Positions 1-14,291 of a stretch of 64,000 nucleotides of DNA are shown here, one piece after another. Below the pieces are notes generated by a model that was given only the letters and a program-made list of their open reading frames with translations, was not told the origin of the DNA and did not search any database. The DNA is taken from NCBI GenBank assembly GCA_016649715.1, contig JAENXC010000017.1:1-64000 (forward strand), read 5' to 3'. Origin of the DNA: Flavobacteriaceae bacterium. GTDB taxonomy: Bacteria; Bacteroidota; Bacteroidia; Flavobacteriales; Flavobacteriaceae. Made by a program: the position numbers and the translations under genes. The first letter of the stretch is position 1. Each line of letters begins with the position of its first letter.

Positions 1-47
1 ATTACAATTGCTAAAATTACTTTTAAAACTTTTTTTATCTTTTTCAT
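1..47 (-). CDS. 5' end of an off-window minus-strand gene, probably exported protein
   Basis: An ATG (complement of 45-47) opens a frame reading M-K-K-I-K-K-V-L-K-V-I-L-A-I-V before the window edge. A lysine-rich start followed by a hydrophobic run looks like a signal peptide or first membrane segment. Only 15 codons are visible, so the product cannot be named. The 330 bp in front of it contain a palindrome and the same CTTAAG boxes found upstream of other minus-strand genes here, which supports a real promoter region. Confidence 0.35.
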   Translation of the reverse strand, partial: MKKIKKVLKVILAIV

Positions 48-117
48 CTTTTTTATTTTTAAGGGGTTAGACATTTATAAATATGCTTATTCGTTCAGAA
101 ACCTAAAATAGACTTAA

Positions 118-141
118 GACCTGCCTGCCGGCAGGCAGGTC
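118..141. repeat. Perfect 24-bp palindrome (GACCTGCCTGCC and its inverse)
   Basis: Positions 118-141 read GACCTGCCTGCC followed directly by its exact inverse complement. Imperfect copies occur at 955-973, 27310-27330, 40878-40900, 50791-50807, 52895-52908 and 55011-55033, several of them inside coding sequences. No transposase is linked to any copy. It behaves like a short interspersed palindromic element. Confidence 0.85.
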
Positions 142-229
142 CTATGTCATATTTAGACAGTTAGGTGTTTTTACTGACAATCATATAAATAAAACATTCA
201 ATACTAAAATGTCCCACAAAAGTTATGAT

Positions 230-280
230 TTTTAATTAAGTTAAGATTTGGTATTTCTTAAGATTGGCTTAAAATTTATC
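230..280 (-). promoter_or_regulatory. CTTAAG-type tandem boxes upstream of the off-window gene (copy C)
   Basis: Two CTTAA boxes start at 257 and 268, exactly 11 bp apart, with further TTAAG boxes at about 236-245. The whole stretch (about 220-280) is nearly identical to sequence at 2450-2515 and 10435-10495, upstream of two decayed VIT1/CCC1 genes. An 11-bp tandem spacing is typical of OmpR/PhoB-family response regulators. That the regulator encoded at 13581-14255 binds here is inference. Confidence 0.5.
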
Positions 281-383
281 AAATACTATCAGGCCGTATA
301 TTTGTCTTAGGGTTGCTTGTATTTTATGGTTCATTTATAATTATACGTTTAGAATCGACCAATCTGCAATGTCTTGAAATCAA

Positions 384-791
384 TCAAACATTGTTAATAG
401 TGTTTATAGTGCCTGAAATGGAACAAGATAGTTTTACTGTATTATAGATGGTTCCAAACTTTTCAATGTTCTTTTTAAGCAAGTCTGTATTAAGCTTTTT
501 ATCGTTGCTGTAAATTGTCAAATTGTAAATTATACTGTCCATCCTCGGTGGATTTTCAAGACGTGTGGCATTCACTTCAACAGTGGCTTTAGTATAGGAA
601 AATTTCATCATCCCCGAAAAGCGTTCAACATTTTTCAGCATACAGGCCGCAAAAGCACCCAAATATAATTCGGCGGGATTTGGCAGCGTTTCAGCAGTTT
701 TTGAAGTCGTTCCAAAATCTATATCAGACTGTTTTATATGAATAACAGCATCCTGATTTGAAGTTGATGACGCTCTGATCTGGTATTTCAT
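384..791 (-). CDS. OsmC/Ohr family protein
   Basis: A 135-residue protein of the OsmC/Ohr superfamily, small dimeric cytoplasmic thiol peroxidases that reduce organic hydroperoxides or related substrates. The two family cysteines are visible: Cys50 in GAFAACMLKN, in the buried helix, and Cys123 in KLSCSISG near the C-terminus. Length matches the family. The Met start is the only sensible one and gives the usual beta-strand beginning. It stands alone, with repeats on both sides. The redox role follows from the family; the exact substrate cannot be read from sequence. Confidence 0.85.
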   Translation of the reverse strand: MKYQIRASSTSNQDAVIHIKQSDIDFGTTSKTAETLPNPAELYLGAFAACMLKNVERFSGMMKFSYTKATVEVNATRLENPPRMDSIIYNLTIYSNDKKLNTDLLKKNIEKFGTIYNTVKLSCSISGTINTINNV

Positions 792-840
792 GGTATGTGT
801 TTCAATTAGTTTAAAAGTGACAATACTTCACAATATGACA

Positions 841-1050
841 TTAGGACTAGAAGACGTAGGACGTAGGACTAAAAGACCCTCCTTCGGCGGGCGGGCGTAT
901 GACTGTATCAATTTTCACAACAAGAAAGATATTATTTTTGTCATAAGTCATACGCCCGCCTGCCAGCAGGCAGGTACGTACATGTCTTATTTCTAACGTC
1001 TCATTTCTCCTGTCTCCTGTCTAACGTCTCATTTCTTATGTCTTATATTT
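841..1050. repeat. Repeat-rich intergenic DNA with long inverted repeat and short tandem repeats
   Basis: The 297 bp between OsmC and the cytochrome gene contain no gene. Arms at 886-904 and 946-964 are inverted repeats (core GCGGGCGTATGACT) with one mismatch in 19 and a 41-bp loop. The right arm runs into a degenerate copy of the CCTGCC palindrome (955-973). To the right, CTAACGTCTCATTTCT occurs twice (993-1008 and 1021-1036) with CCTGTCT repeats between. At 851-870, GACGTAGGACGTAGGAC is a related tandem. Confidence 0.7.
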
Positions 1051-1088
1051 TTTAAGATTTCTTCTCCTTGCCGTGCTTCCGCGCTTAT

Positions 1089-1667
1089 TTAATCTTCCTT
1101 TTTAGTGCCTCTTACTATCCTTGAAATAATTCCTTTATGGGCTGTAAATTCTGCTATAATTACACCAGCCACATGGATTACGATAAATCCAACCAAGTAA
1201 TAAATGCCGAGTACGTGTATTTCCTCCATTGGCTTTTTTAACTCTTTTGAACCAAATTCTATTATGAGTCCAGTAGTTAATGAAGTAACGACACAGAGGT
1301 AAAAAACGATATATGTCCATTTTTGAAATTTCTCCTTTATGGATAGATTTTTAGCAAAAGGATTTTGAAACTTCATATTTCCAAAAAGGGGAAGTATAAA
1401 ACGCAGACTAAATAATCCGGTCAAGACATAGCCTAGGTATATATGCCAATCCCACATGGGTTGTCTTATCTTTTTTGCTAAGGCGATGAGTTGATCCTGT
1501 GTTAAAACCTGGTCGGTACCACTCAAATAATCTTGTATGATTGCTGCCATATTAAACTTATTCATCCAAGTTAATCGCAAAAAAATGGTGATTAACAGTA
1601 GCAGAAATGAAACAGCTATCGCCCAATGAATTATCCGATATACCTTAGAATACTTTGTGTTTTCCAT
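1089..1667 (-). CDS. Cytochrome b561-like membrane protein
   Basis: A four-helix membrane protein of the bacterial cytochrome b561 / Ni-Fe hydrogenase b-subunit type, expected to bind heme b and move electrons in the inner membrane. Candidate heme-ligand histidines lie in RIIHWAIAVSF (helix 1), DWHIYLGYVL (helix 2), EEIHVLGIYY and VIHVAG (helix 4). I chose the Met at 1667 because the family starts with a short M-x-x-T-K-Y-S-K leader. In-frame Met codons at 1691 and 1724 only add a lysine-rich, unconserved tail. The gene is followed at once by a VIT1/CCC1 remnant and is not in an obvious operon. Its partner oxidase or quinone reaction is unknown. Confidence 0.8.
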   Translation of the reverse strand: MENTKYSKVYRIIHWAIAVSFLLLLITIFLRLTWMNKFNMAAIIQDYLSGTDQVLTQDQLIALAKKIRQPMWDWHIYLGYVLTGLFSLRFILPLFGNMKFQNPFAKNLSIKEKFQKWTYIVFYLCVVTSLTTGLIIEFGSKELKKPMEEIHVLGIYYLVGFIVIHVAGVIIAEFTAHKGIISRIVRGTKKED

Positions 1668-1766
1668 AATGTTTGTTTTTAAAATGTTCATTTTCTTTTT
1701 TTTTGATAATATTTCATTGGGCAACTATTAAACACTACTTTTTAAAATAATTGAATCACTCATTTT

Positions 1767-2007
1767 CTAGGTTAAACTAACTACGAATAGATACCCTGCC
1801 AAGGCTGTCAATCCATTGCGACAGTTCCCCAAAAAGTGATTCTAATTACCGCCTTTTTAATTCTGGGACCTCCTGTTTTAGCAGGAACACCTATGGCAAA
1901 ACCAGCTATTGATAGAACCCGTCATTTGCTCCAAGGACGGTTGCTCTTAACCAATTGCTACGGTGTATATAATGATTGTCTAAATAATCATCTTCAAATT
2001 CTGGCAT
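1767..2007 (-). pseudogene. Collapsed VIT1/CCC1 family Fe/Mn transporter (copy A)
   Basis: Reading leftward from the ATG at 2005-2007, the first 30 codons give a VIT1/CCC1 N-terminus including HYIHRSNWLRATVLGANDG. The sequence then jumps directly to the family C-terminus, including AKTGGPRIKKAVIRITFWG, and after a one-base loss to GLTALAGYLFVV before a stop at 1767-1769. Nearly all membrane helices are deleted, so this is a relic of a vacuolar-iron-transporter-type exporter. A second relic lies at 10070-10287. Confidence 0.8.
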
Positions 2008-2063
2008 CTTGTGCAATTTCAAATCTATTATCGTAAAAATACGATAGGTATTTGGGCTAAAAT

Positions 2064-2077
2064 GTGACAAAAGTCAC
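2064..2077 (-). promoter_or_regulatory. CRP/FNR-like palindrome upstream of VIT1/CCC1 relic A
   Basis: GTGAC-N4-GTCAC, embedded in TGTGACAAAAGTCACC, lies about 57 bp upstream of the relic start. The equivalent site at copy B (10341-10356) reads TGTGATAAAAGTCAAC, whose complement resembles the FNR half-sites TTGAC-N4-ATCAC. This is consistent with a Crp/Fnr-family regulator. Which regulator is inference; none is encoded in the window. Confidence 0.45.
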
Positions 2078-2700
2078 CTTTAGAAAATTTATGGGTAATA
2101 CTATTTTATTAACCAAAAAGAAAACCGAATCCATACAATCACAGATGAAACTTTGACTAAAGAACTATAAAATGTTTTAGGAAAATTAAGAACAGTACAG
2201 AGCAGATTAAAATGAAAATAAGGATTAGAATAATAATCCAAATTATTTTATTTTTCGTGCTAATACTGCATTTTACAGCTTTTACTTCGCTATTTCCTTT
2301 GACACGCTTTTTCCGCCTATTTTCCGACATAAAATATCTTTTTATTTAAAATTTTAGCTTCATCTATAAGCATCAAAACATCGTATTCTCCATTTTTAAA
2401 CCTAGGTTGACTATAAACCAATTACTTGATAGCACCGATTTACTGAGCTAGTAAAAGTTGCAATTTTCAATTAAGTTAAGGTTTGGTTTTTCTTAAGATT
2501 GCCTTAAAATTTAAAAGAATTGAGACCAACTTGACATTATAATTCTGCTAAACAGTAAACAGATAACAGACAACCAACAGATCAAAATAGATCATTTCAG
2601 TTTCATGTTTATTTTCAGAATCCTTTCATTTATAAATCTATTTGGAATATTCACCTTGATTATATTATATTGCGTAGTAGTAATTTTAACAAATGTTTAG

Positions 2701-2774
2701 AGCCCCTAATGGTTTTTAGTGGAACAAGGAGGAATAAATAAAAAAACCGTATTTACTTCTAAGGGGCTTTTTTG
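2701..2774. terminator. Possible terminator after the TPR/YaiO operon
   Basis: AGCCCCT (2701-2707) and AGGGGCT (2762-2768) are inverted repeats, with T6 after the right arm and a T7 run on the minus strand (complement of A's at 2740-2747). The loop is long, so its efficiency is uncertain. The position directly downstream of the minus-strand gene ending at 2796 fits transcription termination. Confidence 0.35.
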
Positions 2775-2795
2775 GAAACCCAAAGACAATCTGCC

Positions 2796-3419
2796 CTATT
2801 TCATCAATTCCAGTCCTTCGGTTGCCGAAGCATCGGCGGGATTGTATAGTTTTACCTTGTTGAACAGCACTTTTGCTTCATTGTAATTGCCCTGGAAATA
2901 GGAAGTCCAGCCCAGCATCAGCAGTCCGTCGTAGCCAAAAGGGTACAAATCCACCAACTTTTTAAACAAACTATGTGCTTTGTTGTACTCCTTTCGTCCG
3001 TAATAGATCAGCCCGAGGCGGTACAAGGCCACCGTGTTATTCGGGTTTATTTCTAAGATTTTATTGTACAGGACAATCACTTCGTTCCACTTTCCCAAAG
3101 CCGAAAGTGGCATGATCAACCCAAAGCGGGCCTCTTCGGAGTAAGGTTTTAGTTTTTGCGCAATAGTGTAAAAAACCACCGCCTCGTCAAACAGGCCTGC
3201 GTTATAATTCAGCCAGCCCAATCGCAGGTTTATTTCGTACGAACCGTCAACATAAACTCCTTTCAGTTCGTCCATTGCCGCCGAAAAATCACCCGTTTTT
3301 TCCAACTCATAACTTTTTGAGAAGGCGGTTTCCAAAACCTGCTGATTGACTTGTGCTTCCGCAGTATATATTACGGATGCTAATAGGATAATTGCTATTC
3401 TTAATTTTAAAAACTCCAT
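2796..3419 (-). CDS. Exported tetratricopeptide-repeat protein
   Basis: 207 residues. Residues 1-22 form a signal peptide ending near AEAQ; the rest are TPR helices with typical pairs such as ARFGLIMPLSALGKWNEVI, VALYRLGLIYYGRKEYNKA and GLLMLGWTSYFQGNYNEAK, about four to five repeats. It probably acts in the periplasm as a protein-protein scaffold. Its start overlaps the end of the YaiO-like barrel gene by 13 bp, so the two are translationally coupled. It is the last gene of the PqqD/ATP-grasp/decarboxylase cluster. The partner is unknown, but the barrel encoded just upstream is the obvious candidate. Confidence 0.8.
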   Translation of the reverse strand: MEFLKLRIAIILLASVIYTAEAQVNQQVLETAFSKSYELEKTGDFSAAMDELKGVYVDGSYEINLRLGWLNYNAGLFDEAVVFYTIAQKLKPYSEEARFGLIMPLSALGKWNEVIVLYNKILEINPNNTVALYRLGLIYYGRKEYNKAHSLFKKLVDLYPFGYDGLLMLGWTSYFQGNYNEAKVLFNKVKLYNPADASATEGLELMK

Positions 3420-4738
3420 GATATTCCCGCTGTTATAGTGTGTTTTGTAAAGTTATAATTTATTGAATTACTTTCAACCCCCAAAGCATAAATTCGATAC
3501 TTTTCCTCCACATCCTGATTGATGTAACGAAAAATCAATTGCCCTTTTTTGGTAATCGGAATATAAACGCTGCCCGTGAATTTATGGTCCGATTTGCCGG
3601 GGATATTGGAAACGACATACCCCGCCGCTTCAATAAAATTCTCTAAGTCGCCAATCAGATATTGCCCGTTTAAATGAACTTTCCCCAGTTGTGCTCCGCC
3701 CGAAATCCCGAAGGTGTTGTAACTTAAGCTGTTTTTGGAATCCGATTTAAAATAAGCTCTCGGCGTTATGTAATAATCGGCATTCGAAAAAGGGTAAAAC
3801 GTGATCCAAGCCGAAAGTTGCGTAAAGGTTTCGTCATAGATATTGGCGAAGTTCACTTCCGCCCCGGGCGATAAATTTCCAAAATGCGACCAGGCAGACG
3901 CGGAAAAAATAAAATCGGAGAAATCGTTATCCACTTCCGTGAAAATTTGATTCGAATTATTATCTAACGAGCCTGCAAAATACGAAGTATTGCCCCAAAG
4001 AACACTCAATGCCGGCGACAAATGGATTTTTTGCCCCAGCACAAAATGCGGGTTGATAAAATACTGGAACTGATTGGTTTTGACAGGGAACCTTGTTTTC
4101 GTTCCCCAATCCACCGTTTGTTCGAGGGTGCTTTGCAAATATGTTAAATTGTGGTTTAGCGAAAAACCCGGTAGAATTTGGTGGCTCAAATCAAACGACT
4201 CAAAATGGTAATATTCCAGAAAAAATGCTTCCCCATAATCTTCGTTTTCATCGATTTTTTTATCCAAATCGAGTGCGGACAACTGCTCGAAATCGGGATT
4301 GAAGCTATAGCCGACTTCCAGTGCCGCCTGTAATATTTTGCTTCTTTTGAATCCAATTTTATTTTTCATGGCGCTCGAAAAATCATTGGCCAGTTTCATC
4401 GCTTCGTCTTTTCTTCCCGAATAAACCAAACTGTAATAAACATACTCCTGTAACCACTCAAATTGTTGATCATTTTTGTAAGCTTTCAGAAACCACTCGG
4501 TTGCAGTACGGTATTTTCCGAGCTTGAAAAATGCAATTCCGGTACGTGCCTGCAAGTAAAAAAAGTCGATGCCCTGTTTTCGGGATCGGACTGAATAATC
4601 AATCAATTCCACCCATTTTTGTTGTTGAAAGAGCTGGTATGATGTTGAATCAACTTCAACAAAATTCATTTTTTTTTGCGCTGAAACGTTCATCACAAAA
4701 AGAAACAACACCACAATTATCACAATTCGCTTATACAT
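3407..4738 (-). CDS. YaiO-like outer-membrane beta-barrel protein with TPR head
   Basis: 443 residues: signal peptide (1-20, ending SAQ), a TPR-like helical head (about 25-125, with RTGIAFFKLGKYRTATEWF), then alternating hydrophobic/polar strands to a terminal GISWSF. A C-terminal aromatic residue is the usual outer-membrane barrel signature. This layout matches the YaiO family. It overlaps the urea-transporter/peptidase gene by 19 bp and the TPR gene by 13 bp, so the three genes form one unit. It may be the export or anchoring component for whatever the cluster makes, which is inference. Confidence 0.75.
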   Translation of the reverse strand: MYKRIVIIVVLFLFVMNVSAQKKMNFVEVDSTSYQLFQQQKWVELIDYSVRSRKQGIDFFYLQARTGIAFFKLGKYRTATEWFLKAYKNDQQFEWLQEYVYYSLVYSGRKDEAMKLANDFSSAMKNKIGFKRSKILQAALEVGYSFNPDFEQLSALDLDKKIDENEDYGEAFFLEYYHFESFDLSHQILPGFSLNHNLTYLQSTLEQTVDWGTKTRFPVKTNQFQYFINPHFVLGQKIHLSPALSVLWGNTSYFAGSLDNNSNQIFTEVDNDFSDFIFSASAWSHFGNLSPGAEVNFANIYDETFTQLSAWITFYPFSNADYYITPRAYFKSDSKNSLSYNTFGISGGAQLGKVHLNGQYLIGDLENFIEAAGYVVSNIPGKSDHKFTGSVYIPITKKGQLIFRYINQDVEEKYRIYALGVESNSINYNFTKHTITAGISWSF

Positions 4739-6942
4739 TGTATTCTAATTTTTGCTTTGTTGGTAACAATCGATATCTCAAAGGTTTTTTGGTCATTTAC
4801 CGTCACTTTGCAGTGATATTCCTTTATTTTTCGGCCCCCGATTCGTTGGGTAATCTGCACGCTCATCGCCACATCGCCCGATGATAAAATATCGCCTGCT
4901 TCCTTTATGGTCAATTCATAATCCACTTTCAGAAAAAGAAAAATGGGAGCAATAAAATCCTGAAAAAATTTCAGGACGCCGCCAAACATCAGGTTTAGCG
5001 GGATGGAATCGGAGATTTTACTGTTGGGCAAGAATCCCAGCGGGACTTTGTAAAGCGAGGCAAAAAACCAAAACAACGCAGTGTTTTTCTTTCCGTTGTA
5101 ATTGGTGAAATAGTGCAAATCGCCATTGTTGTACAAATATGCTTTCCCGTCGTCGGTTTTGCTCCGGATGTAGGTGGTGTTGAAAACGTCGGTTTCCACT
5201 GCCCACGAAAACGTACCGGCCAGTTTTTGCCATTTTTTATTTTCCGATGCTACTTCCACAATCCCTTTCATTTGCTGTCCGGGAATAAAATGCAGTGCTT
5301 TTTGAAGGATTTGGTTTTTTGTGGGTCTGGCTATCAGCGCGTCTTTCAACGGGTTTTCAAAAGTTTTTAGTTGATATCTGTTTTCCTCTTTCAGTAGGAA
5401 ATTGCCAAATGGATAATCAATGGTTGGCGAGCCGATATATGGTGTTACCTGAAATTGGAAATGCAAATGCGGGTACGGCGAGCGACCAGAATTCCCACAT
5501 CGCCCAACCACTTGTCCCTGTTTAATTTGGTCGCCCCATGTTACTTTTACCGAATTCTGTTTTAAGTGGCTGAGTGTAGCGTACAAAAAATCGTTGTACT
5601 TGATAATTACAGTGTTCCCCCAGTTCTCACGGGTGTTTATGTCGCTAATTTTATTATCGGGAATGTGGTTAATGGTTTCAATTACCGTTCCATCAAATGG
5701 TGCGAGTACCGCTTTATCAAAACAGAAATAGTCTTCAACAAAATCGCCGCTGTTTTTAAATTGTACATCATTTGCGTCAACAACAATAAAATCCCACGCA
5801 TTTCTCCAAGCTCCTTTATGTGTATGCTCGCCGTTGTGTGCCTGGCTCACTTTCCACTCGCCGTAGAACGGCAACGATGCAGAAATTGGGAAAGCAGCAG
5901 GAAAACGTTTGATATTGCCGGACTGTAAATACAAATTATGTTCGGGCTTGCCCAATTGAACAGGCGTTTCAAGGAGGTGTTTGGGGCGCCTTTCACGCAA
6001 CTTTAATGCGTACAGAAACATCAAAACAACCATATTGAAGGGCAAGGAATAGGGCGGAATTTTGAACAGCAAAAATAATTGTTGCGTGCCGATGGTAATT
6101 AAAACCACCGCAGGCAACAGCAAAATTATCCAACCGTAACTCACGCGGTTGGGCACCAAATAGTAGCCGCCCAGCGCAATAGCGGTTAAAATATAATTGA
6201 AACCGATGAAGGTGTAGCTGAGCGAATTGAACTCGATTCCCACAAATTTGTAAAATAGGAACGCCACGGAATATCCCAAAATTGACAGCCCAAAAGTGAT
6301 GCGCGAATATACAAGCAAGCCCACAGCGATAATAATTCCCGCCAATAAATGATGCTGAAAAAAAATGGCCGCCAACGAATGAAAATAGATATTGATAAAC
6401 GGGGAGCTGATGGAATTTTCCAGTAGGTTGTAAAAATCAACAATCTTTAGACCACCCAACGCATACAATTCATTGTAAATAAAGATGCTGCGCTCACTGA
6501 TGTTCAATGCGGTTAAACTGTTGCCCGAAAGCGCTATAATCCAAATTGTCAATAAAAAAGGCACGCTTAAAAAAGGCAATCCGTATTTTCCTAAAATGCC
6601 CTGAAAAACTATGGTCAGGAAAAAGCAAATTATTGCCGCAATGGCAATCAACAAATACAATTCGATAGATGGTTGATAAAGAAGCCCAATACCCAAACCC
6701 ACTAAAAGAGCATTAAAACCGTACAGTCCCGACTGTAAAAAATATTTGTTGTAACCCAACGTCCACGCCAGTACGTTCGCAAATGCAACGGCAATTATTC
6801 CGCCCAATCCCGCGCCATAATCAAAAAAACTGATAACCACCAAAAAGGCAGCCAGAAGTTTTGATTTGGAGAAAAACACCTGTGAATAGCTGTTTAGGAC
6901 AACATTCAGTATATTTTTCGCTTTTAGGATATTTTCGGCCAT
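4720..6942 (-). CDS. Urea-transporter-like membrane domain fused to M23 metallopeptidase domain
   Basis: About 740 residues. The first roughly 300 form ten or so hydrophobic segments resembling the urea transporter (UT) fold, with small-residue-rich stretches such as GLYGFNALLVGLGIGLLY. After a linker (RERRPKHLLETPVQ) comes a LytM/M23 domain with HTHKGAWRNAWDF, the WGNTVIIKY core and the zinc motif PHLHFQFQV, so the Zn ligands look intact. About 220 further residues form a C-terminal soluble domain. I start at Met 6942 (MAENILKAKN); the 45 residues before it translate palindromic repeat DNA. The gene overlaps the barrel gene by 19 bp. Confidence 0.75.
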   Translation of the reverse strand: MAENILKAKNILNVVLNSYSQVFFSKSKLLAAFLVVISFFDYGAGLGGIIAVAFANVLAWTLGYNKYFLQSGLYGFNALLVGLGIGLLYQPSIELYLLIAIAAIICFFLTIVFQGILGKYGLPFLSVPFLLTIWIIALSGNSLTALNISERSIFIYNELYALGGLKIVDFYNLLENSISSPFINIYFHSLAAIFFQHHLLAGIIIAVGLLVYSRITFGLSILGYSVAFLFYKFVGIEFNSLSYTFIGFNYILTAIALGGYYLVPNRVSYGWIILLLPAVVLITIGTQQLFLLFKIPPYSLPFNMVVLMFLYALKLRERRPKHLLETPVQLGKPEHNLYLQSGNIKRFPAAFPISASLPFYGEWKVSQAHNGEHTHKGAWRNAWDFIVVDANDVQFKNSGDFVEDYFCFDKAVLAPFDGTVIETINHIPDNKISDINTRENWGNTVIIKYNDFLYATLSHLKQNSVKVTWGDQIKQGQVVGRCGNSGRSPYPHLHFQFQVTPYIGSPTIDYPFGNFLLKEENRYQLKTFENPLKDALIARPTKNQILQKALHFIPGQQMKGIVEVASENKKWQKLAGTFSWAVETDVFNTTYIRSKTDDGKAYLYNNGDLHYFTNYNGKKNTALFWFFASLYKVPLGFLPNSKISDSIPLNLMFGGVLKFFQDFIAPIFLFLKVDYELTIKEAGDILSSGDVAMSVQITQRIGGRKIKEYHCKVTVNDQKTFEISIVTNKAKIRIQCISEL

Positions 6943-6962
6943 TGATTTTGTTTTTATATTCC

Positions 6963-7137
6963 ATTGCCGTTGACTGAAGTCAACGGCAATTTGTGCAGAG
7001 GCTGCTGGCTTTTGCCACATTTCTTTCATGCTCCAACAGATATGCTGGAAATGTGGCTGAAGCCAGATTCCATGCAATTCTTATATCCCGCAATAAAGAG
7101 CTCTATAATATCCATCGGTTAAAACCAACGGCTATGG
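6963..7137. repeat. Cluster of three palindromes (REP-like) inside the operon
   Basis: Three hairpins are packed in 175 bp between the decarboxylase and transporter genes. The first is a perfect 12-bp stem with TGAA loop (ATTGCCGTTGAC, 6963-6974 and 6979-6990). The second has 18-bp arms CTGGCTTTTGCCACATTT (7005-7022) and its near-inverse (7049-7066). The third is an imperfect one around 7112-7137 (CCATCGGTT...AACCAACGG). This is the structure expected of REP/BIME-type elements mobilised by RAYT transposases; no such gene is in the window. Confidence 0.7.
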
Positions 7138-7221
7138 AGTTTCCTAATATTTTCTTCTTTTCATTTAAAATTCGGTTTTTACATCACTAAAAAAAGTGAT
7201 ATAAAAATGAAAATCTCGTCA

Positions 7222-8562
7222 TTATTTTTTCGGGTTGAACTCGTTTTTTTTAATTGTTTCTAAATTTTCTTTCTTTCTTATGATGTGCGTTTTTCCTTCC
7301 AAATCAATTAAAACCACATTTGGACGGTAGGTAATAAACTGCATCCACTGCGTGACATTGTAGGCACCTACACGCTCAATCACCAATTGGTCGCCCGTTT
7401 TAATCTGCGGAAAATTTATGGCTTCGCGCACTACGTCGATGTTCATGCAAAGCGGGCCGTAAATGGTGGTGTCTTCCATAAAGTCAGTAACTTCACGGCT
7501 GGGGAAAACTCCGAGATTATACCAAAAAGAGGTGAACAATAAATTCACCCCGGCATCAATTACAAGGGTTTTTCGGCCGGTTGTGGAGCGTTTGTTGGCC
7601 AGCACCGATGTAATTAAATAACCAGCGTCGTCAATAAGTGCACGACCGGTTTCCAAAAATAAAACGGGCAAATTTTCGTGCGGTATTTCCGACGAAATAA
7701 TGGCATTTGAAATGGCTTCGGCATAATCATCGAAGCTTGGGCAGGTTTCCGAGCCGGGCATGTAAGCACCTTTCAAAGTGTTTTTTGATGCAAAGCCACC
7801 GCCCAAATCGATGTATTTGAGCCAATAGTCGAATTTGCGATGCGTAGCAATCATTAAATTCGAGAGTTTTGAGGCTGCAATCCCGTATGCCGATGCCGTC
7901 ATAATATAAGTACCGATATGCGTATGTAGCCCGATTAGCTCCAGGTTTTCGGCCAGCATGATACGGTTGATCGCGTTCCATGCTTCGCCATTTTCATAGT
8001 TGAAACCAAAGCGGTCCCACATCGGATAAATGCCAGCATCAAGGTTAATGCGAATGGCGACCCGTGCCTTTTTGTTCATTTTCCGCGTGGTCTCTATCAG
8101 CAAATACAGCTCGTCAAAATGGTCGATGTGGATACTGGCGTTGTGGTCGATGGCGAGCATTAAATCCTGTTTCGATTTTTCGGGGCCGTTATAGAGGATG
8201 TTTGCTCCATTTACGCCCAATGATAGCGCTTTCTCGAATTCAAAACCCGAAACCACTTCGGCCCAGGCACCTTCGTCGTGAAAAATGCTGCATACGGCAT
8301 CCAGATAATTGGTTTTGTACGACCAGGCAAACTGTACTTTTGGATAGCGCGTTTCAAAGGCCCGTTTTGCATCGTTGTACGTTTCACGTATTTTTTTTTC
8401 TGAAAACACAAAAACCGGCGAGCCAAACTCTTCTACAAACTTCGCCACGGGAATGGAATCGATTTCAGCAATAATTTTCTGTTTGGTTGACAACCCAAAT
8501 TTACCGGGAACACCGGTTGTAATTTTGCTGATTATTGGTTTTTCGTAGGTCGACTTTTTCAT
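7222..8562 (-). CDS. PLP-dependent decarboxylase, alanine-racemase/DAP-decarboxylase fold
   Basis: 446 residues of the fold-type III decarboxylase group (diaminopimelate, ornithine/arginine and carboxynorspermidine decarboxylases). Visible landmarks are AWSYKTNYL with the PLP-binding lysine, GLHTHIG, the phosphate-binding YIDLGGGFASKN and the FLETGRALID loop. Length is close to LysA. The substrate is unlikely to be plain diaminopimelate, because the gene starts only 5 bp after an ATP-grasp ligase and sits in a PqqD-like cluster. I infer decarboxylation of an amino acid or a ligated amino-acid product. An alternative is a polyamine-type enzyme. Confidence 0.8.
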   Translation of the reverse strand: MKKSTYEKPIISKITTGVPGKFGLSTKQKIIAEIDSIPVAKFVEEFGSPVFVFSEKKIRETYNDAKRAFETRYPKVQFAWSYKTNYLDAVCSIFHDEGAWAEVVSGFEFEKALSLGVNGANILYNGPEKSKQDLMLAIDHNASIHIDHFDELYLLIETTRKMNKKARVAIRINLDAGIYPMWDRFGFNYENGEAWNAINRIMLAENLELIGLHTHIGTYIMTASAYGIAASKLSNLMIATHRKFDYWLKYIDLGGGFASKNTLKGAYMPGSETCPSFDDYAEAISNAIISSEIPHENLPVLFLETGRALIDDAGYLITSVLANKRSTTGRKTLVIDAGVNLLFTSFWYNLGVFPSREVTDFMEDTTIYGPLCMNIDVVREAINFPQIKTGDQLVIERVGAYNVTQWMQFITYRPNVVLIDLEGKTHIIRKKENLETIKKNEFNPKK

Positions 8563-8567
8563 ATCTT

Positions 8568-9614
8568 TTAAATTTCCTTATTAATTGAAATTGTTGCAAA
8601 TCGCTCCAAATCGACAATCATGTCGTAGGAGTAACGCACAAACATTTTCCCTATTTTGTAGTCTGTCATGGGTTTCACTTCCATTCCCAATGCAAGTTTT
8701 ATCAAGGCTTCCGGAATGTTTTGTCCCGCACCAACGGCTAAATACACCCAAGCCGGAATACGCGGGTTTATTTCCACCAGGTAATAATCGCCAGCGTTGG
8801 TTTTTATCAGTTCCAATTCCATTCCGCCTTTCCATTTTGTTTTTTGGATGAGCGAACGGGTAAGCTCGAGCATTTTTTCGTCGGCTATTGTAATGCCGCC
8901 CCAGGCTTTTCCTTTGTCTGTGATGTATTGTTTGCGCATGGGCACTGCCGCCACGGTGTTTCCGTTTCCGTCGCCCAACGCCACTACATTCACTTCGGTA
9001 CCGCTCACAAACTCCTGCACAATAACGGGCAAACCCCATTTCGAAGCTATTTTATGAAATGCCTGTGTTGCCTGCTCAATATTGAAGCTTTTGTAGGCAT
9101 CATAAAATTGACCCTTTACCATTATCGGATAATCGAATCTTTTTTCTATTTCATTCAATTGGCTGAGGTTGCCTAAATTGAGACCGTTGGGAACTTTCAC
9201 GCCGTATTTTTTTCCATACTCTGGCAACTTGTCTTTTTCTCGTTCCTGAAACTGTTTCAAAGTGGGTAAAAATGTTCGAATTCCCTTTTCTGCCAATCGT
9301 TTCTCGTATTTCATAAACGAAAAAAGTTCGGAATCGAAATTGGGTATCAACACATCTATCTTTTCTTGTTGGTGAATGTGTTCAATGCGTTCAATCAACT
9401 CCTCAGATCCCGCTGAAGGATAGGGGACTTGAAAGATACGGTCGCACAAACCTTCCATGTAAATACCAGGCTCCAGGTTTTCGTAAACCAAGCCAACCAC
9501 CCGCACGTCAAATTCCTCCGAATCTTTTACACCGCGGATAACTGGAACTCCCGGCCCCGGGTTATCTGTGTTGTTAAGGCCTGTAACTGCCAATGTTATT
9601 TTCTGTTTTGCCAT
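8568..9614 (-). CDS. ATP-grasp carboxylate-amine ligase
   Basis: 348 residues of the ATP-grasp superfamily, enzymes that activate a carboxylate as acyl phosphate and couple it to an amine or thiol. An N-terminal Rossmann-like pre-ATP domain (ITLAVTGLNN..., DVLIPNFDSE) is followed by ATP-grasp elements: the lysine strand YPIMVKGQFY, the VIVQEFVSG hinge and the metal-binding ELELIKTNAGDYYLVEINPRI with its E...N pair. It resembles carbamoyl-phosphate synthetase large-subunit and biotin-carboxylase-like ligases. The next gene begins 5 bp after its end, so product transfer from ligase to decarboxylase is plausible. Substrates are unknown. Confidence 0.85.
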   Translation of the reverse strand: MAKQKITLAVTGLNNTDNPGPGVPVIRGVKDSEEFDVRVVGLVYENLEPGIYMEGLCDRIFQVPYPSAGSEELIERIEHIHQQEKIDVLIPNFDSELFSFMKYEKRLAEKGIRTFLPTLKQFQEREKDKLPEYGKKYGVKVPNGLNLGNLSQLNEIEKRFDYPIMVKGQFYDAYKSFNIEQATQAFHKIASKWGLPVIVQEFVSGTEVNVVALGDGNGNTVAAVPMRKQYITDKGKAWGGITIADEKMLELTRSLIQKTKWKGGMELELIKTNAGDYYLVEINPRIPAWVYLAVGAGQNIPEALIKLALGMEVKPMTDYKIGKMFVRYSYDMIVDLERFATISINKEI

Positions 9615-9680
9615 AATCGGTCTACTTTATGTAAATAAGAAAACTTCTATTCTTTTTAGTTTTTTCTCACTTAGGCTACC

Positions 9681-9944
9681 TTAAACAAAATCCAATGGAT
9701 TGCCTTGCTGCGTTAACTGGTGGTGTTTCAGCATCGCAAGGAATTCATAAAAATCTTTCTCGAAAGCGAGCTCGTCAACATCGTATTTTTCAAGGATTGA
9801 TTCCCTGATTTCATCAAAACCATTGTCGATCGCAATCATTTTGATCATTTCCAAACCCATTGGGTTCAGGCTAAATGACTCGCCGGTGCGCGAATTGAAA
9901 ACAAATCCGTTATCGCTGATTTTTATCTCTTCTGAAATTTGCAT
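9681..9944 (-). CDS. Small PqqD-like protein
   Basis: 87 residues with the PqqD/RiPP-recognition-element outline: three short N-terminal strands (EEIKISDNGFVFNSRTGESFSL), then NPMGLEMIKMI and helices containing DFYEFLAMLKHHQLT. PqqD-type proteins bind peptide precursors or act as partner subunits for modifying enzymes. The gene leads the cluster, 66 bp upstream of the ATP-grasp ligase, and is in the right place to be its chaperone or carrier. The assignment rests on fold-level similarity, so a stand-alone regulatory role is possible. Confidence 0.65.
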   Translation of the reverse strand: MQISEEIKISDNGFVFNSRTGESFSLNPMGLEMIKMIAIDNGFDEIRESILEKYDVDELAFEKDFYEFLAMLKHHQLTQQGNPLDFV

Positions 9945-10069
9945 GAATTTGAATTTTTATGGGATTTAGAATTTTATATTTTTATTTGACACCAAAACAG
10001 CCCAGCTCTTGCGCCGTAGAATACTATTTCGACTAAAAAAAAGGTGCAAAGTTCAATTGCAACTTAAAA

Positions 10070-10287
10070 TTATTTGTGATTGTACTAACAGTTATAGATA
10101 AAGCTCCTGCCACCAGACCCGCTAACATCGCAAGTACTATAAAATCTCTCGTATCACTTCTACCAGCTACCCCAATTGCAATATTGGCGGTGGATGAATA
10201 GGGTATTAGCTCCTATAAGATCAGCCTTTAACCAATTACTACGTGCAAATAATGAATGTCTAAAAAATCATTTTGAAATTCTGACAT
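10070..10287 (-). pseudogene. Truncated VIT1/CCC1 family transporter (copy B)
   Basis: From the ATG at 10285-10287 the frame begins like copy A (MSEFQNDFLDIHYLH), shifts by one base before SNWLKADLIGAN, and after another shift continues as STANIAIGV and LAMLAGLVAGALSITVST, the typical first two helices of VIT1/CCC1. Homology ends near 10070. Unlike copy A it keeps the N-terminal helices and lacks the C-terminus. Both relics face the same way, 8 kb apart, on either side of the PqqD/ATP-grasp cluster. Confidence 0.75.
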
Positions 10288-10530
10288 TTTGAAATTACAT
10301 TTCTGTATTCGTAAAAATACGATAGGTATTTGGGCTAAAATGTGATAAAAGTCAACTTTAGAAAATTTTTGGCAACACTATTTTGACCATAAACCAATTA
10401 CTTGATAGCACCGATTTACTGACCCAGTAAAAGTTGCACTTTTTAATTAAGCTAAGATTTGGTTTTTCTTAAGATTGGCTTAAAATATAAAAGAATTGAG
10501 ACCAACTTGCTATTACAATTCTGCTAAACA
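10288..10530 (-). promoter_or_regulatory. Upstream region of VIT1/CCC1 relic B: FNR-like site and CTTAAG boxes
   Basis: This stretch is homologous to 2008-2102 plus 2410-2552. It carries TGTGATAAAAGTCAAC at 10341-10356 (Crp/Fnr-like) and CTTAA boxes at 10468 and 10479, 11 bp apart. Preservation of both sites in two decayed copies suggests that the ancestral transporter was controlled both by oxygen/redox state and by the response-regulator system. The latter is inference from the shared box spacing. Confidence 0.5.
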
Positions 10531-10592
10531 GTTTGTTAAATCGAAATTTTACTTCCATTTATAAACAGACAGGAATTTCATAGACAGAAATT

Positions 10593-10790
10593 CTATTTGA
10601 ATACATAGCACCTATGGATAAAAGAAGTTGTAAGGAAAGTGGTGGAAGTATGACCGGAAGGAAAGGCATTGTCCCCGTTATTATAAGGACGGCGTTTATT
10701 TAAAGCGATTTTAAAAAATATAGGCCTGAACTTTCGGTATGGTTTTGTGAAAATCGTTATATGGCAGTTCGTTGTTTCTAAAGGCCGCAA
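10593..10790 (-). pseudogene. Fragment of a PAP2 phosphatase
   Basis: The frame contains NKRRPYNNGDNAFPSGHTS followed by TTFLTTSFIHRCYVFK and a stop. This matches the KxxRPxxxxxxPSGHT core of the intact PAP2 gene just to its right (NKPRPDGATDGHAFPSGHT). The third catalytic block (SRxGxxxHxxxD) and the signal peptide are missing, and sequence upstream of the core is not PAP2-like. I call it a decayed paralogue. The 170 bp from 10791 to 10964 hold only short CCTCCAGCATCC repeats. Confidence 0.75.
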
Positions 10791-10964
10791 GCAAGAAAAT
10801 TGACGACCATTTTTGACAGAGAATTAATGAACTAAAAACTATCAACGCCAATCAGGGAAGCGCACAAACTGAACTTCCAACCTCCAGCATCCAGCATCCA
10901 ACCTCCAGCATCCGCCAAGCAATATGCTTTTACTTTTTCAACTATTGGATCCATTTAGAAAAAA

Positions 10965-11525
10965 TTAAAAATTGTACTTAATGCCCAACAGATAATCCCC
11001 GCCCCCACTTTTAAACGAAAGTTCGTAATGATCCTGTTCATAAGGCGTTGTAAAAATATATGTGCTTCCAATGCCCACTACCGCTCCCGCAAGAACGTCC
11101 CAGGTATCATGACGCTCAGCCCCTATTCGTGAGTATCCTACAAAACCAGCAACCAAATATGCGGGAACTCCATATTTCCACCCATATCTTCTTTGAACAA
11201 AGGAAGCTCCAGAAAAGGCATTAGCGGTATGCCCTGAAGGAAAGGCATGACCATCTGTGGCTCCGTCTGGCCTAGGTTTATTGATTGTATACTTCAAAAT
11301 ATAGGTGGCGCCCAATGTGGTGCCCAAAGATTCCGCAAATTGCCAAACACCTTTTTTATCCTTGTTGACTATTATTAAAGTTAAAGCTGTGGCGTCAGGA
11401 ATAAATTGCGCGAAATTACCTATGTTCTGAATGGTTTTTTCGAACCTTAGTTCTTTTGGCGAATCTTCTTGGGACCATAGTAGCCCGGTCATCATAATAA
11501 ATAATAATACAAATACTTTTTTCAT
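10965..11525 (-). CDS. PAP2-family lipid/acid phosphatase, exported
   Basis: 186 residues with a signal peptide (1-18, ending LLWSQ). All three PAP2 blocks are present: KYTINKPRPD, HAFPSGHTANAF and YSRIGAERHDTWDVLAG, containing the catalytic His pair and Asp. Family members dephosphorylate lipid phosphates such as undecaprenyl diphosphate, phosphatidate or lipid A in the periplasm. The C-terminal SGGGDYLLGIKYNF is amphipathic. The promoter region carries two CTTAA boxes, and the gene neighbours a PepSY-like gene and a two-component system, suggesting an envelope-stress regulon. A broken paralogue lies immediately downstream. Confidence 0.85.
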   Translation of the reverse strand: MKKVFVLLFIMMTGLLWSQEDSPKELRFEKTIQNIGNFAQFIPDATALTLIIVNKDKKGVWQFAESLGTTLGATYILKYTINKPRPDGATDGHAFPSGHTANAFSGASFVQRRYGWKYGVPAYLVAGFVGYSRIGAERHDTWDVLAGAVVGIGSTYIFTTPYEQDHYELSFKSGGGDYLLGIKYNF

Positions 11526-11620
11526 AGACTTTGATTTAATCTGGATTTTAAAAAAGAAAAAGTTGTGGTGTATTTTTAAGTTTATGCGGTGTGTTATTAT
11601 GATTCTTACGTAAAACTATT

Positions 11621-11648
11621 ACTAAAATCTTAAGAAAACTTAAAGTGG
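11621..11648 (-). promoter_or_regulatory. Tandem CTTAA boxes upstream of the PAP2 gene
   Basis: CTTAAG at 11629 and CTTAAA at 11639 repeat every 10 bp about 100 bp upstream of the PAP2 start. They are related to the 11-bp spaced boxes at 12286, 15091 and 20626. Assignment to the response regulator at 13581 is inference from the shared pattern. Confidence 0.45.
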
Positions 11649-11718
11649 GATAATCCTAGTAATCAATTCAATTAGAACTCATCTTTAGATTCTAATGAAG
11701 CATATAACTAAAAAAAAC

Positions 11719-11741
11719 GCCGTGAAATGGCACTTCACGGC
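11719..11741 (-). terminator. Rho-independent terminator of the PepSY-like gene
   Basis: GCCGTGAA (11719-11726) and TTCACGGC (11734-11741) form an 8-bp stem with a 7-base loop. On the minus strand the stem is followed by a run of T (complement of A's at 11711-11717). It lies 40 bp after the stop of the gene ending at 11782. Confidence 0.8.
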
Positions 11742-11781
11742 ACTTTAATAATCAACTAATCAATTAACCTAAAAACTCAAT

Positions 11782-12249
11782 CTAATCTTTGTCTTCTTTA
11801 TCGTTTTCTTCTTTTTTCATTTCTTGTTTAGTCACTTTTCCTGAAGGGTCAATGGCAACTTCCATTTCAGTATCTCCTTTCTCTATTGCAAATTCATAGA
11901 CCGTTCCCGAAGCTGTTTCAGACATTTCCATCTCTTCTGTTTTAAATCCTGGAAAGCCATCAGACAATGCTTTTTTAACTACGGCGGGCAAATCTTTTTC
12001 AGCAATTCCGTGTTCGGTTTCTTTCCAGGTACCATCTTCCGAAAAATTTGCTGAGTAATCCGTTTTATTCATTTTAAACTCCGCCTCCCATTCATTGGCA
12101 GATTCTTTATCCCATTTTACGGATTTTGCTGTTGGGAACTTTTTAGTGAACGCATCCTTTACTCTTTGGGGCACCTTTTCCCCTGCGGAACAAAAGCTAA
12201 ACATAACCGAAGTTAGTAAGACTGTTAATACTATTTTTATTGTTTTCAT
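11782..12249 (-). CDS. Exported PepSY-like domain protein
   Basis: 155 residues: signal peptide (1-22, with CSAGEK at the cleavage region, possibly a lipobox cysteine), then two PepSY-like/BLIP-like repeats. Each has the alternation of a helix (VPQRVKDAFTKKFPTAK; LPAVVKKALSDGFPGF) and strands with the W/Y-E-A/F-x-F pattern (NEWEAEFKMNKTDYSANFS; TVYEFAIEKGDTEMEVAID). The tail is acidic and lysine-rich. Such proteins are periplasmic, are often induced by two-component systems and have no proven activity. Its promoter has the clearest tandem operator in the window, and the kinase gene ends 85 bp upstream. Confidence 0.8.
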   Translation of the reverse strand: MKTIKIVLTVLLTSVMFSFCSAGEKVPQRVKDAFTKKFPTAKSVKWDKESANEWEAEFKMNKTDYSANFSEDGTWKETEHGIAEKDLPAVVKKALSDGFPGFKTEEMEMSETASGTVYEFAIEKGDTEMEVAIDPSGKVTKQEMKKEENDKEDKD

Positions 12250-12285
12250 AACTATTGTTTTTAAATTATAAAGTAAATGTAACTA

Positions 12286-12320
12286 CCAAATCTAAAGTTG
12301 GTTTTAAGAGAATCTAAAGA
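12286..12320 (-). promoter_or_regulatory. Three tandem 11-bp operator repeats upstream of the PepSY-like gene
   Basis: In the direction of transcription the boxes read TTTAGATTCTC, TTAAAACCAAC and TTTAGATTTGG, three consecutive 11-mers. CTAAAG cores start at 12292 and 12314 on the plus strand, exactly 22 bp apart, with a weaker TTTAAG centred between. One-helical-turn tandem repeats are characteristic of OmpR/PhoB-family binding. Confidence 0.65.
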
Positions 12321-12333
12321 ATGAAGATTATTA

Positions 12334-13578
12334 TTAAAATGTGATTGAGAAGGAATGCTGTTGGTCTGCAAAATGATAAGTGAGATCAAACTTATAGAGA
12401 TCGCATATTTTTTTTACAATGGCCAGTCCGAGCCCAGTAGATTGCACGGAATTTACCTCCCTATAAAATCTAAGAAATAGCTTTTCAGGATTCATTAAGG
12501 CATTTTGCCCGTAATTTGATATTACCAAGGTTTTATTTTCTGCAATTATGGAAATCTTTTTTTCTTCACCACTATGCTTAATGGCGTTGGAAATTAAGTT
12601 GTTGATCAAAATATCTGCAAGATAAATATCCATTGAAACTACAAGGTCAGTTTTTGAATGGAGCATGATATAATCAATCTCCATCTCCTTAAAATTTTCT
12701 ATTTTTTCCTCCAATAGTTTTGTGACATTAACATCTTCGACCCTTATAAACTGATTGTTGTCAATTTTAGTAAGTATTGTAATTCGTTGGTTGAGATGCT
12801 TCAAGCGCTGAATATCTTTTTGGATGGAAGAAATTTGCTCAAACTGTTTGTCGTTAATGCTGTGTTCGTTGATAATATTGTCAATCTTGGCTTGAATGAT
12901 TGCCAAGGATGTCTGCATTTCGTGCGATACATCTTCGGTGAACTGTTTTAAGCTTTCGTAGTCATTCCGGACTTTGGAGGTCAATAATAGTATTTCGTCT
13001 TTTAGTTCAGAAAATTCCAAAACATCGCTGTCCACAAGTTGCATTTCTTCATTGGATGAAAGTGAGAATCTTTTCATCTCTTCCAGATTTTTAAAAAAAG
13101 GGCTCCAAAGTTTAATATTCTTTGTGGTGTTGAAAAAGAACAGAAATAGAAACGCCAAAACAAATATGGTTATATTCGAAAACACGATAGCTATCAGAAT
13201 ATCTTTAGATTCCACCACCAAATTCCGTACTGTAATTTGATAGATCTGTCCGTTTATTTCCTCATAAGTGGAGAGTTCACGAAATTCTTCCATCTCGTCT
13301 TGGGATGGGTCGTAAATAATAGTGTCCTTTATAGTTTTAGGCCTTGCGTTCTTTGCAATTTTTATCTCCGTTACCGGAGGCAATGAAAAAATGACTTTGT
13401 CATTTTTCAGTGCATTTACAACTCTAGCCTCTGTGGAATATAGACTTTCTTCAACCTGCCCTTGCAGTAAGTCCTTTGTATAAGAATACAAAACAATAGA
13501 ACTCAAAACCACCAAGACAAGCCCAGTCAAAATGAAGGTCCTTGATGTTTTTTTTATAAGTTTTGTTTTTTTACCCAC
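12334..13578 (-). CDS. Membrane sensor histidine kinase
   Basis: 414 residues: two transmembrane helices (about 13-34 and 127-150) enclosing a periplasmic sensor of about 95 residues, then a dimerisation domain with the H-box FTEDVSHEMQTSLAII and a catalytic domain with N-box NNLISNAIKHSG and G-box STGLGLAIVKKI. The H-box has Gln-Thr-Ser instead of the usual Arg-Thr-Pro after HE. The kinase starts 2 bp after the response regulator, forming a COG4705-regulator-kinase operon. The stimulus is unknown; neighbouring efflux and envelope genes suggest metals or antimicrobial compounds. Confidence 0.9.
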   Translation of the reverse strand: MGKKTKLIKKTSRTFILTGLVLVVLSSIVLYSYTKDLLQGQVEESLYSTEARVVNALKNDKVIFSLPPVTEIKIAKNARPKTIKDTIIYDPSQDEMEEFRELSTYEEINGQIYQITVRNLVVESKDILIAIVFSNITIFVLAFLFLFFFNTTKNIKLWSPFFKNLEEMKRFSLSSNEEMQLVDSDVLEFSELKDEILLLTSKVRNDYESLKQFTEDVSHEMQTSLAIIQAKIDNIINEHSINDKQFEQISSIQKDIQRLKHLNQRITILTKIDNNQFIRVEDVNVTKLLEEKIENFKEMEIDYIMLHSKTDLVVSMDIYLADILINNLISNAIKHSGEEKKISIIAENKTLVISNYGQNALMNPEKLFLRFYREVNSVQSTGLGLAIVKKICDLYKFDLTYHFADQQHSFSITF

Positions 13579-13580
13579 TT

Positions 13581-14255
13581 CTAGTCTTCTATAAATTTGT
13601 ACCCACTTCCGTAGGCTGTCTTTATATATTTCGCTCCCTCAGCAGTCAATTTTTTCCGCAAGTTATTGATGTGGACATAAATAAAATCAAAGTTGTCCAA
13701 CAAATCACTATTGTCGCCCCAAAGGTGCTCCGCTATAATTTCTTTGGAAAGAACCCTTCCCTTATTCGACACAAAAAACACGAGCAGGTCGTATTCCTTT
13801 TTGGTCAGTGCTATTGCACTTCCGTCAATGTATGCAGTTCTGGAACGAGTGTCAATTTTTATTTCATTGAATTCAATAAGTTCATCCCCTCCGTATTTTC
13901 CGCGTCGCAAAACTGCATTTATTCGAGCGTTCAATTCTGCTAAGTGAAACGGTTTTGTTATGTAATCATCAGCCCCTAAATCTAGACCTTCCAGCTTATC
14001 TGTCAGCGAATTGTTCGCCGAGATAATAATTACACCTACATCCTTTTTTTCTTTTTTTAACGATTTAAGGATGTCAAGGCCGCTGCCTGAAATTAAATTT
14101 ACATCCAAAATAATTACATCGTAATCGTAAATGGCGACCTTTTCTGAAGCTTCATTAAAATTTGAAGCTACTTCACACAAATTTCCATCGCGTTCCAGAT
14201 ACGTAACTATGGACTGTTGTAAATCTATCTCGTCTTCGGCTATTAAATATTTCAT
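13581..14255 (-). CDS. OmpR/PhoB-family response regulator
   Basis: 224 residues: receiver domain (acidic pocket AEDEID, phospho-acceptor Asp51 in VIILDVNLISG, lysine in DDYITKPF), then a winged-helix DNA-binding domain (ALTKKEYDLLVFF...DFIYVHINNLRKKL, ending YGSGYKF). It is the cognate partner of the kinase, whose gene starts 2 bp after its stop. It lies 36 bp downstream of the COG4705 gene, so its expression probably depends on the promoter at 15091. That promoter carries two 11-bp boxes and implies autoregulation. Confidence 0.9.
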   Translation of the reverse strand: MKYLIAEDEIDLQQSIVTYLERDGNLCEVASNFNEASEKVAIYDYDVIILDVNLISGSGLDILKSLKKEKKDVGVIIISANNSLTDKLEGLDLGADDYITKPFHLAELNARINAVLRRGKYGGDELIEFNEIKIDTRSRTAYIDGSAIALTKKEYDLLVFFVSNKGRVLSKEIIAEHLWGDNSDLLDNFDFIYVHINNLRKKLTAEGAKYIKTAYGSGYKFIED

Positions 14256-14291
14256 GTATATAAACTTAAAGTAATAAAAATTGATATTTGA

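Follow-up and report, generated by a model that had tools for sequence, protein, structure and literature searches.

A conserved six-gene cluster in Bacteroidota that combines an ATP-grasp ligase and a decarboxylase with a urea-channel fold fused to an M23 hydrolase

Introduction

Why should a small PqqD-like protein, an ATP-grasp ligase, a pyridoxal phosphate (PLP) decarboxylase, a urea transporter (UT) domain fused to an M23 hydrolase, a barrel and a tetratricopeptide repeat (TPR) protein be encoded side by side? The question is raised by positions 2796-9944 of a 64,000-nucleotide stretch of DNA (positions 1-64,000 of contig JAENXC010000017.1, assembly GCA_016649715.1, Flavobacteriaceae bacterium; hereafter the window), where open reading frame (ORF) reading and Pfam searches place six neighbouring genes, all on the minus strand. 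An initial annotation, made from the letters of the window, had described these ORFs, a 5-bp spacing between ligase and decarboxylase and partial overlaps further on, all of which are present. It had proposed a system that ligates and decarboxylates an amino acid or peptide and exports or uses it at the envelope, and it knew of no description of the combination; our search of the openly licensed literature found none either, and the cluster is apparently undescribed.

The reading that we prefer, tentatively and at somewhat less than even confidence, is of one module that makes or handles a small amino-acid-derived product by ligation, decarboxylation of the conjugate, hydrolytic release and passage through a pore and a barrel. 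The family labels decarboxylase and urea transporter are both misleading here, and with this locus it can be tested whether a urea-channel fold may carry something other than urea and whether an M23 hydrolase may act intracellularly. The genes and their parts are as follows.

9681-9944, minus strand: PqqD-like protein, 87 aa (PF05402; tblastn matches in relatives' loci)
8568-9614, minus strand: ATP-grasp ligase, 348 aa (PF15632, invariant residues, profile match to 2pn1)
7222-8562, minus strand: PLP decarboxylase of the alanine racemase fold, 446 aa, with an FslC-like active site (PF02784, match to 7kh2)
6943-7221, minus strand: gap of 279 bp with inverted repeats, from the decarboxylase to the UT-M23 gene
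5908-6942, minus strand: UT-type ten-helix pore domain with an altered urea filter, UT-M23 residues 1-345 (AlphaFold model)
5356-5907, minus strand: M23 zinc hydrolase domain, UT-M23 residues 346-529, on the predicted cytoplasmic side (PF01551)
4720-5355, minus strand: C-terminal beta-barrel or calyx domain, UT-M23 residues 530-740 (separate AlphaFold model)
3407-4738, minus strand: candidate secreted outer-membrane barrel, 443 aa, with a short N-terminal TPR-like part (signal peptide by eye)
2796-3419, minus strand: secreted TPR protein, 207 aa (TPR_2; signal peptide by eye)

The UT-M23 gene covers 4720-6942, with a start at 6942 that was our choice (the longer ORF option begins at a TTG at 7077), and the overlapping pairs are UT-M23/barrel and barrel/TPR. 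Five of the labels given initially are borne out by Pfam matches above cut-off: PqqD (PF05402, 32.3 bits vs 23.4), ATP-grasp (PF15632, ATPgrasp_Ter, 45 vs 29.1), PLP decarboxylase (PF02784, Orn_Arg_deC_N, 104 vs 23.4), UT with M23 (PF03253, 186.6 vs 25; PF01551, Peptidase_M23, 52.8 vs 28.7) and TPR (TPR_2, 68.4 vs 27).

Conservation and spread of the cluster

A search of 395 Bacteroidota genomes found the ligase in 34 (E≤1e-25), the window's own included, and each of the 34 has a UT gene beside it. UT genes were found in 44 of the 395, the other ten genomes having stand-alone UTs only, in open frames of 280-332 aa. Within the window's family two of 100 genomes carry the ligase, its own included (E≤1e-20), and a one-genome-per-species collection yielded at least 567 stretches with ligase relatives (tblastn E≤1e-3). 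Gene presence was scored at the loci of two sets of relatives: set 1 holds 35 stretches from 34 other genomes, and set 2 holds 80 named loci, which are the best 80 of the 567 confirmed stretches, with a bias towards near relatives. A gene was counted at tblastn E≤1e-3, in loci of sufficient length only.

Scored in this way, the PqqD gene was present in 35/35 loci of set 1 and 79/79 of set 2 with at least 400 bases upstream, the decarboxylase in 35/35 and 75/75, UT-M23 in 34/34 and 59/61 (the 59 including a remnant in locus L147), the TPR gene in 29/31 and 45/47, and a barrel of any of three families in 27/31 and 44/46. The PqqD, ligase, decarboxylase, UT-M23 and TPR genes stand together in 29/31 and 44/46 loci, or 73 of 77, and every one of these five-gene loci (29/29 and 44/44; 73/73) has the same order and strand, a regularity that far exceeds chance. 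The order of all six genes is also kept in records of Prolixibacteraceae, Marinifilaceae, Cyclobacteriaceae, Chlorobiota, Ignavibacteria and Kapaibacterium. The wide spread of ligase relatives and the conserved gene order mean that the module must do something useful, and we regard it as nearly certain that the six genes are one real module acting together. The initial annotation had suggested a search for co-occurrence in Bacteroidota, with rarity elsewhere as an argument against it; we ran that search, and the families co-occur across the phylum, so that argument does not apply.

The exceptions mostly support the linkage as well, since missing genes turn up elsewhere in the same genomes. Loci L083 and L109 hold PqqD, ligase and decarboxylase genes only, with UT-M23 and TPR elsewhere in these genomes (the distant copy of the second has one stop in its C-terminal part), and in genome G104 (locus L034) the TPR gene lies ~7.5 kb further on. 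L147, in genome G528, keeps the PqqD, ligase and decarboxylase genes and a 158-aa frame with what is left of UT; no TPR was found in the genome at E≤1e-15 and no barrel match at the locus, which looks like a decaying cluster. L067 had no TPR match at the locus.

UT and M23 parts share one ORF in 99 of the 101 loci that have both, the exceptions being L034 and L065. The M23 frame of L034 extends upstream into the UT gene, so a frameshift looks likely, and its split genes were not used as proof of a cytoplasmic M23 domain. L065 and L066 lie on contig 1 of genome G223, which has a cluster start at both ends and may be a circle whose overlap was left untrimmed; in the copy at one of the ends, UT-M23 is split over two frames. 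Alignment A1 omits near-copies and broken sequences (L046, L055, L056, L065), and alignment A2 omits these together with the two pieces, UT and M23, of L034. In a single genome (L110:7090-7923) a gene for a DUF4405 membrane protein stands between the PqqD and ligase genes.

Among 28 genomes of the window's genus the ligase, the sole gene searched, was found in the window's own only (E≤1e-30), and the congener G491 has the right flank, 11710-14300, at 86% DNA identity. In a ligase tree of 112 rows the window is placed beside a Dysgonamonadaceae record, within a 15-row clade in which most of the rows that carry a family name are Prolixibacteraceae. Presence in one genome of the genus, together with relatives of Prolixibacteraceae type, suggests that the cluster arrived as a unit, and it was probably gained horizontally as such; arrival as a unit would fit a self-contained function.

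The decarboxylase, its ligase and the PqqD-like protein

Judged from its sequence, the cluster decarboxylase is not LysA, the diaminopimelate (DAP) decarboxylase. Cluster enzymes from 14 genomes score 206.6-236.6 bits against TIGR01048 (LysA), below its cut-off of 297.9, and 13 of the 14 genomes have a separate LysA above it. K83, H215, E304, C372, D376 and Y401 are invariant in the 14 sequences. The catalytic Cys is followed by Met in all 14, as in FslC, and by Glu in 12 of 13 LysA sequences (one gap), the motif reading CMNID in the cluster and CE(S/T) in LysA. S81, T84, W182, R184, T218, M373, N402 (12/14) and F409 are further residues shared with FslC and mostly not with LysA. The best match in the PDB was 7kh2, the N-citrylornithine decarboxylase FslC (1e-55, 192 bits), compared with 139 bits for LysA and 91 for BtrK; against the FslC model NF041039 the enzyme scored 224.5 bits, below the cut-off of 500. 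A tree that carries a long-branch warning and has one FslC row groups the 14 cluster enzymes with FslC (97/96), apart from the 13 LysA. The substrates of relatives in this clade, according to excerpts of PMC7857480, are N-citrylornithine, N-citryl-diaminopropionate, O-citrylserine, a glutamylated carrier protein and a modified microcin, and for clade members other than DAP decarboxylase (DAPDC) or D-ornithine decarboxylase (D-ODC) specialised metabolism is the more likely role. An FslC-like active site, in a clade whose members take conjugates, suggests that the decarboxylase would act after the ligase and take the ligase product as its substrate; we hold this order of chemistry, as read from sequence, with moderate confidence.

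That the two enzymes carry out a joint reaction is made likely by a natural fusion, encoded on a Streptomyces zaomyceticus plasmid (L208:9998-12274). In this protein of 758 aa an ATP-grasp part, with 29.7% identity to the window ligase (residues 5-305, tblastn E 2e-28), precedes a PLP decarboxylase that is over cut-off for PF02784 (31.8 bits) and PF00278 (28 bits). The plasmid was the sole record among 72,556 plasmids with one place covering at least 80% of the fusion protein. The fusion gene is followed by a 195-aa gene without a Pfam match and by a fatty acid desaturase gene. An ATP-grasp match on a Natribaculum plasmid (24.5% identity), in a record without annotation and with neighbours that by eye are sugar-polymer genes, was set aside as lying outside this system.

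In the window ligase, K167, E268, E281, N283 and R285, invariant among 32 sequences, are presumably residues with a metal or ATP role, and its profile match in the PDB is 2pn1 (2.8e-16). The 87-residue protein is PqqD-like, as initially proposed; PqqD models of lasso, HPr-rel-A and other peptide systems also match it, all below their own cut-offs. (The 104 PqqD sequences were chosen by a motif filter, and their invariance was not used.) It is probably a specificity or docking subunit of the ligase.

Same-strand ORFs of 18-110 aa were collected between -2.5 and +9 kb of the ligase in the window and in 115 further loci, clipped at contig ends; the 25 groups with the widest spread, each present in at least 6 of the 116 loci, contained no precursor peptide or carrier gene. 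These groups consist of the PqqD gene itself and of ORFs positioned inside the big genes, so no dedicated precursor or carrier is seen at the locus; the PqqD-like gene was the sole small gene observed as conserved, no search being made for a carrier encoded elsewhere.

Three known systems resemble parts of this set. Butirosin BtrI-BtrJ-BtrK likewise comprises a small protein, a ligase and a PLP decarboxylase of the same clade that acts on a bound amino acid. BtrJ is an ATP-grasp ligase, and the butirosin system is not known to include a pore-hydrolase, a barrel or a TPR protein. Its small protein is a carrier protein, whereas that of the cluster is PqqD-like, and BtrK scores less than half of what FslC does against the cluster decarboxylase; BtrK and an 87-aa BtrI are described in excerpts of PMC7857480. 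Rhizoferrin FigA/FigC (FslA/FslC) shares with the proposed chemistry a ligase that acts first and a decarboxylase that acts on an amide conjugate (PMC7857480, in part), and FslC shares active-site letters with the cluster enzyme, but the ligase there is an NRPS-independent siderophore (NIS) synthetase and not ATP-grasp, and the FslC model is matched far below its cut-off. Graspetides and other ATP-grasp modified peptides also have an ATP-grasp ligase with a small partner protein; at this locus no precursor was seen among the widest-spread small-ORF groups. In passages of a graspetide survey (PMC8939145) PqqD comes up solely as an analogy and in the title of one reference, and neither a decarboxylase nor M23 is mentioned.

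The UT-M23 protein

Residues 1-351 of the UT-M23 protein match known urea channels at VIA Z 37.3-38.6, and the AlphaFold model of the full protein has a mean pLDDT of 88.7. Fold and Pfam match are those of a urea transporter, as the initial annotation had it, but the urea filter is not. Of the positions that we take to line or bind urea in dvUT (Q24, T130, E187 and T294), that of E187 is A15 L9 F2 S2 I1 M1 Y1 among 31 cluster UTs, with Glu or Gln in 0/31, and that of T294 is V15 S8 A5 T3. Stand-alone UTs of the same phylum, nine of the ten being used as controls (the tenth is without a locus), keep Q24, T130, E/Q187 and T294 in 9/9 each. The loss of urea-binding positions indicates that this is not an ordinary urea pore. 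It also departs from dvUT and the UT family in its fused M23 and calyx domains and in scoring 120.1 bits against TIGR03441, whose cut-off is 274.6.

The zinc ligands and catalytic His of the M23 domain (H375, D384, H459, H492, H494) are kept in 31/31 sequences. By Z, its best structural match is the LytM domain of DipM (VIA Z 14.6, root-mean-square deviation (rmsd) 2.9, 127 aligned), and the nearest M23/LytM structures are mostly cell-wall enzymes or regulators of these. The initial annotation had pointed out that M23 enzymes cut peptidoglycan peptides, and here its proposal fares less well. Lys and Arg in the predicted loops number 255 inside and 51 outside, with inside exceeding outside in 31/31 proteins and still in 29/31 with both termini left out. 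Both termini of UT-B are inside. Together with the UT fold, the positive-inside pattern would make the M23 domain cytoplasmic, out of reach of peptidoglycan.

The C-terminal 211 residues form a barrel in a separate AlphaFold model (mean pLDDT 91.8). It aligned with KdgM (Z 9.8, rmsd 4.5, 143 aligned) and LolA (Z 8.3, rmsd 3.7, 128 aligned), and Foldseek gave no match at E <0.001; membership of the LolA, KdgM or FABP families was not adopted, the matches being weak.

Proposed function and alternatives

Put together, these observations allow a tentative path. In the cytoplasm the ATP-grasp enzyme would join an amino acid to a partner, the PqqD-like protein serving as an obligatory docking or specificity subunit, and the PLP decarboxylase would then strip the carboxyl group from the already joined amino acid, in the manner of FslC/FigC, SbnH, BtrK and MccE. 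UT-M23 would be an inner-membrane pore of urea-channel fold that carries a cytoplasmic zinc hydrolase and a ligand-binding-like barrel; it may free the product by hydrolysis and pass it through the inner membrane, and the periplasmic TPR protein and outer-membrane barrel would complete the path across the envelope. Release by M23 followed by passage through the altered pore is the most economical reading of this protein. A bolder version, which we find rather doubtful, makes the cluster an undescribed class of envelope machine, in which docked-conjugate chemistry in the cytoplasm is coupled, within a single membrane protein, to a re-tuned urea-channel pore that has a cytoplasmic zinc hydrolase and a ligand-binding barrel of its own, release and passage are one step, and the outer-membrane barrel finishes export.

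Several observations weigh against this path. The main one concerns placement, for M23 and LolA-like domains are usually periplasmic; the loop borders behind the charge count were set by us after a first look, and the calyx has weak fold matches only. The filter also remains in part, Q24 being kept in 21 of 28 non-gap sequences and T130 being Ser in 29/31. As to the chemistry, genome G130 is without a LysA over cut-off besides the cluster enzyme, and the branch uniting the decarboxylases with FslC joins long branches. The tree position of the fusion protein is unsupported (80/45), and its ATP-grasp part matches Pfam at 24.2 bits, below the cut-off of 29.1, so that the assignment of that part is by tblastn. 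Known UT pores, finally, measure 2-3 Å at the constriction (excerpts of PMC10541013), and only a very small product would pass.

The narrow pore bears also on an unlikely alternative, a pathway akin to that of ribosomally made and modified peptides (RiPPs), in which the PqqD-like protein binds a leader, ligase and decarboxylase modify the peptide, and M23 trims it before exit through the envelope. The matches to PqqD models of lasso, HPr-rel-A and similar systems, although below cut-off, would fit this, as would the peptidase fold of M23 and the microcin intermediate on which MccE, itself related to the decarboxylase, acts (PMC7857480); a UT-type pore would probably be too narrow for a peptide, and the small-ORF groups near the ligase, on the same strand and of 18-110 aa, contained no precursor. 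Improbable, in our view, is an envelope system with peptidoglycan or peptidoglycan fragments as the M23 substrate and with the enzymes supplying a ligated or decarboxylated cell-wall building block. The cell-wall character of the closest M23/LytM structures and the signal peptides seen by eye in the barrel and TPR proteins speak for it; the 31/31 positive-inside pattern on a UT fold, pointing to a cytoplasmic M23 domain, and a decarboxylase other than DAP decarboxylase speak against it. The fusion favours the ligating and decarboxylating part of the initial proposal, and the peptidoglycan part is disfavoured.

UT proteins are passive pores without a set direction, and the path could be run inwards, barrel and altered pore importing a small solute that is then hydrolysed, ligated and decarboxylated inside. 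A hydrolase at the cytoplasmic mouth would fit the trapping of such a substrate, but ATP-driven ligation and a decarboxylase from a clade of specialised metabolism (PMC7857480, in part) fit synthesis better, and besides barrels and proteins with a type IX secretion system (T9SS) tail every other recurring family is limited to 7 or fewer of 36 loci, the rarer ones being unannotated; we give uptake little credence. The likeness to FslC could also suggest a siderophore, for which the odds are low: no NIS synthetase is among the six genes, the neighbours found in at most 7 of 36 loci being unannotated. An anti-phage defence system was discarded because none of the six proteins matched a PADLOC family at E≤0.01.

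Envelope partners and other features of the locus

The path from synthesis to export that we prefer would end at the barrel, for which the initial name, YaiO-like, found no confirmation: no NCBIfam model (the library includes one for YaiO) matched it at E≤0.1, and its Pfam matches are to TPR only, far below cut-off. Homologues of the window barrel sit between UT-M23 and TPR, a place taken in other clades by other barrel-like families. Secreted proteins with a T9SS tail may be a surface partner of the cluster. One kind, alike by eye, stands between ligase and decarboxylase in L099, L124, L126, L142 and L145; the other, the cluster 7 family, is near 13 of the loci L039-L061; in 12 of these it lies upstream of the PqqD gene, and in 10 it is the immediate upstream neighbour. 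The sorting tail was over cut-off in one scanned member of each kind (L050 for cluster 7, and L126). Homology of the two is not claimed, as their hhalign match (E 7.6e-8) leans on the shared sorting tail.

The inverted repeats in the 279-bp gap have arms at 6963-6975/6978-6990 and 7005-7023/7048-7066 and are of the repetitive extragenic palindromic (REP) type (window 6963-7066); in several relatives the decarboxylase and UT-M23 genes overlap or stand at most 60 bases apart. No RNA element passed the Rfam gathering cut-offs in window positions 1-14000, and scans for promoters (16 vs 17.5) and terminators (10 vs 9.1) were both at chance level. On the other flank, two 21-nt tandem copies lie at 10876-10917, and a small ORF with an AFPSGHT stretch (10593-10790), beside an intact PAP2 gene (10965-11525), looks like a decayed PAP2 copy.

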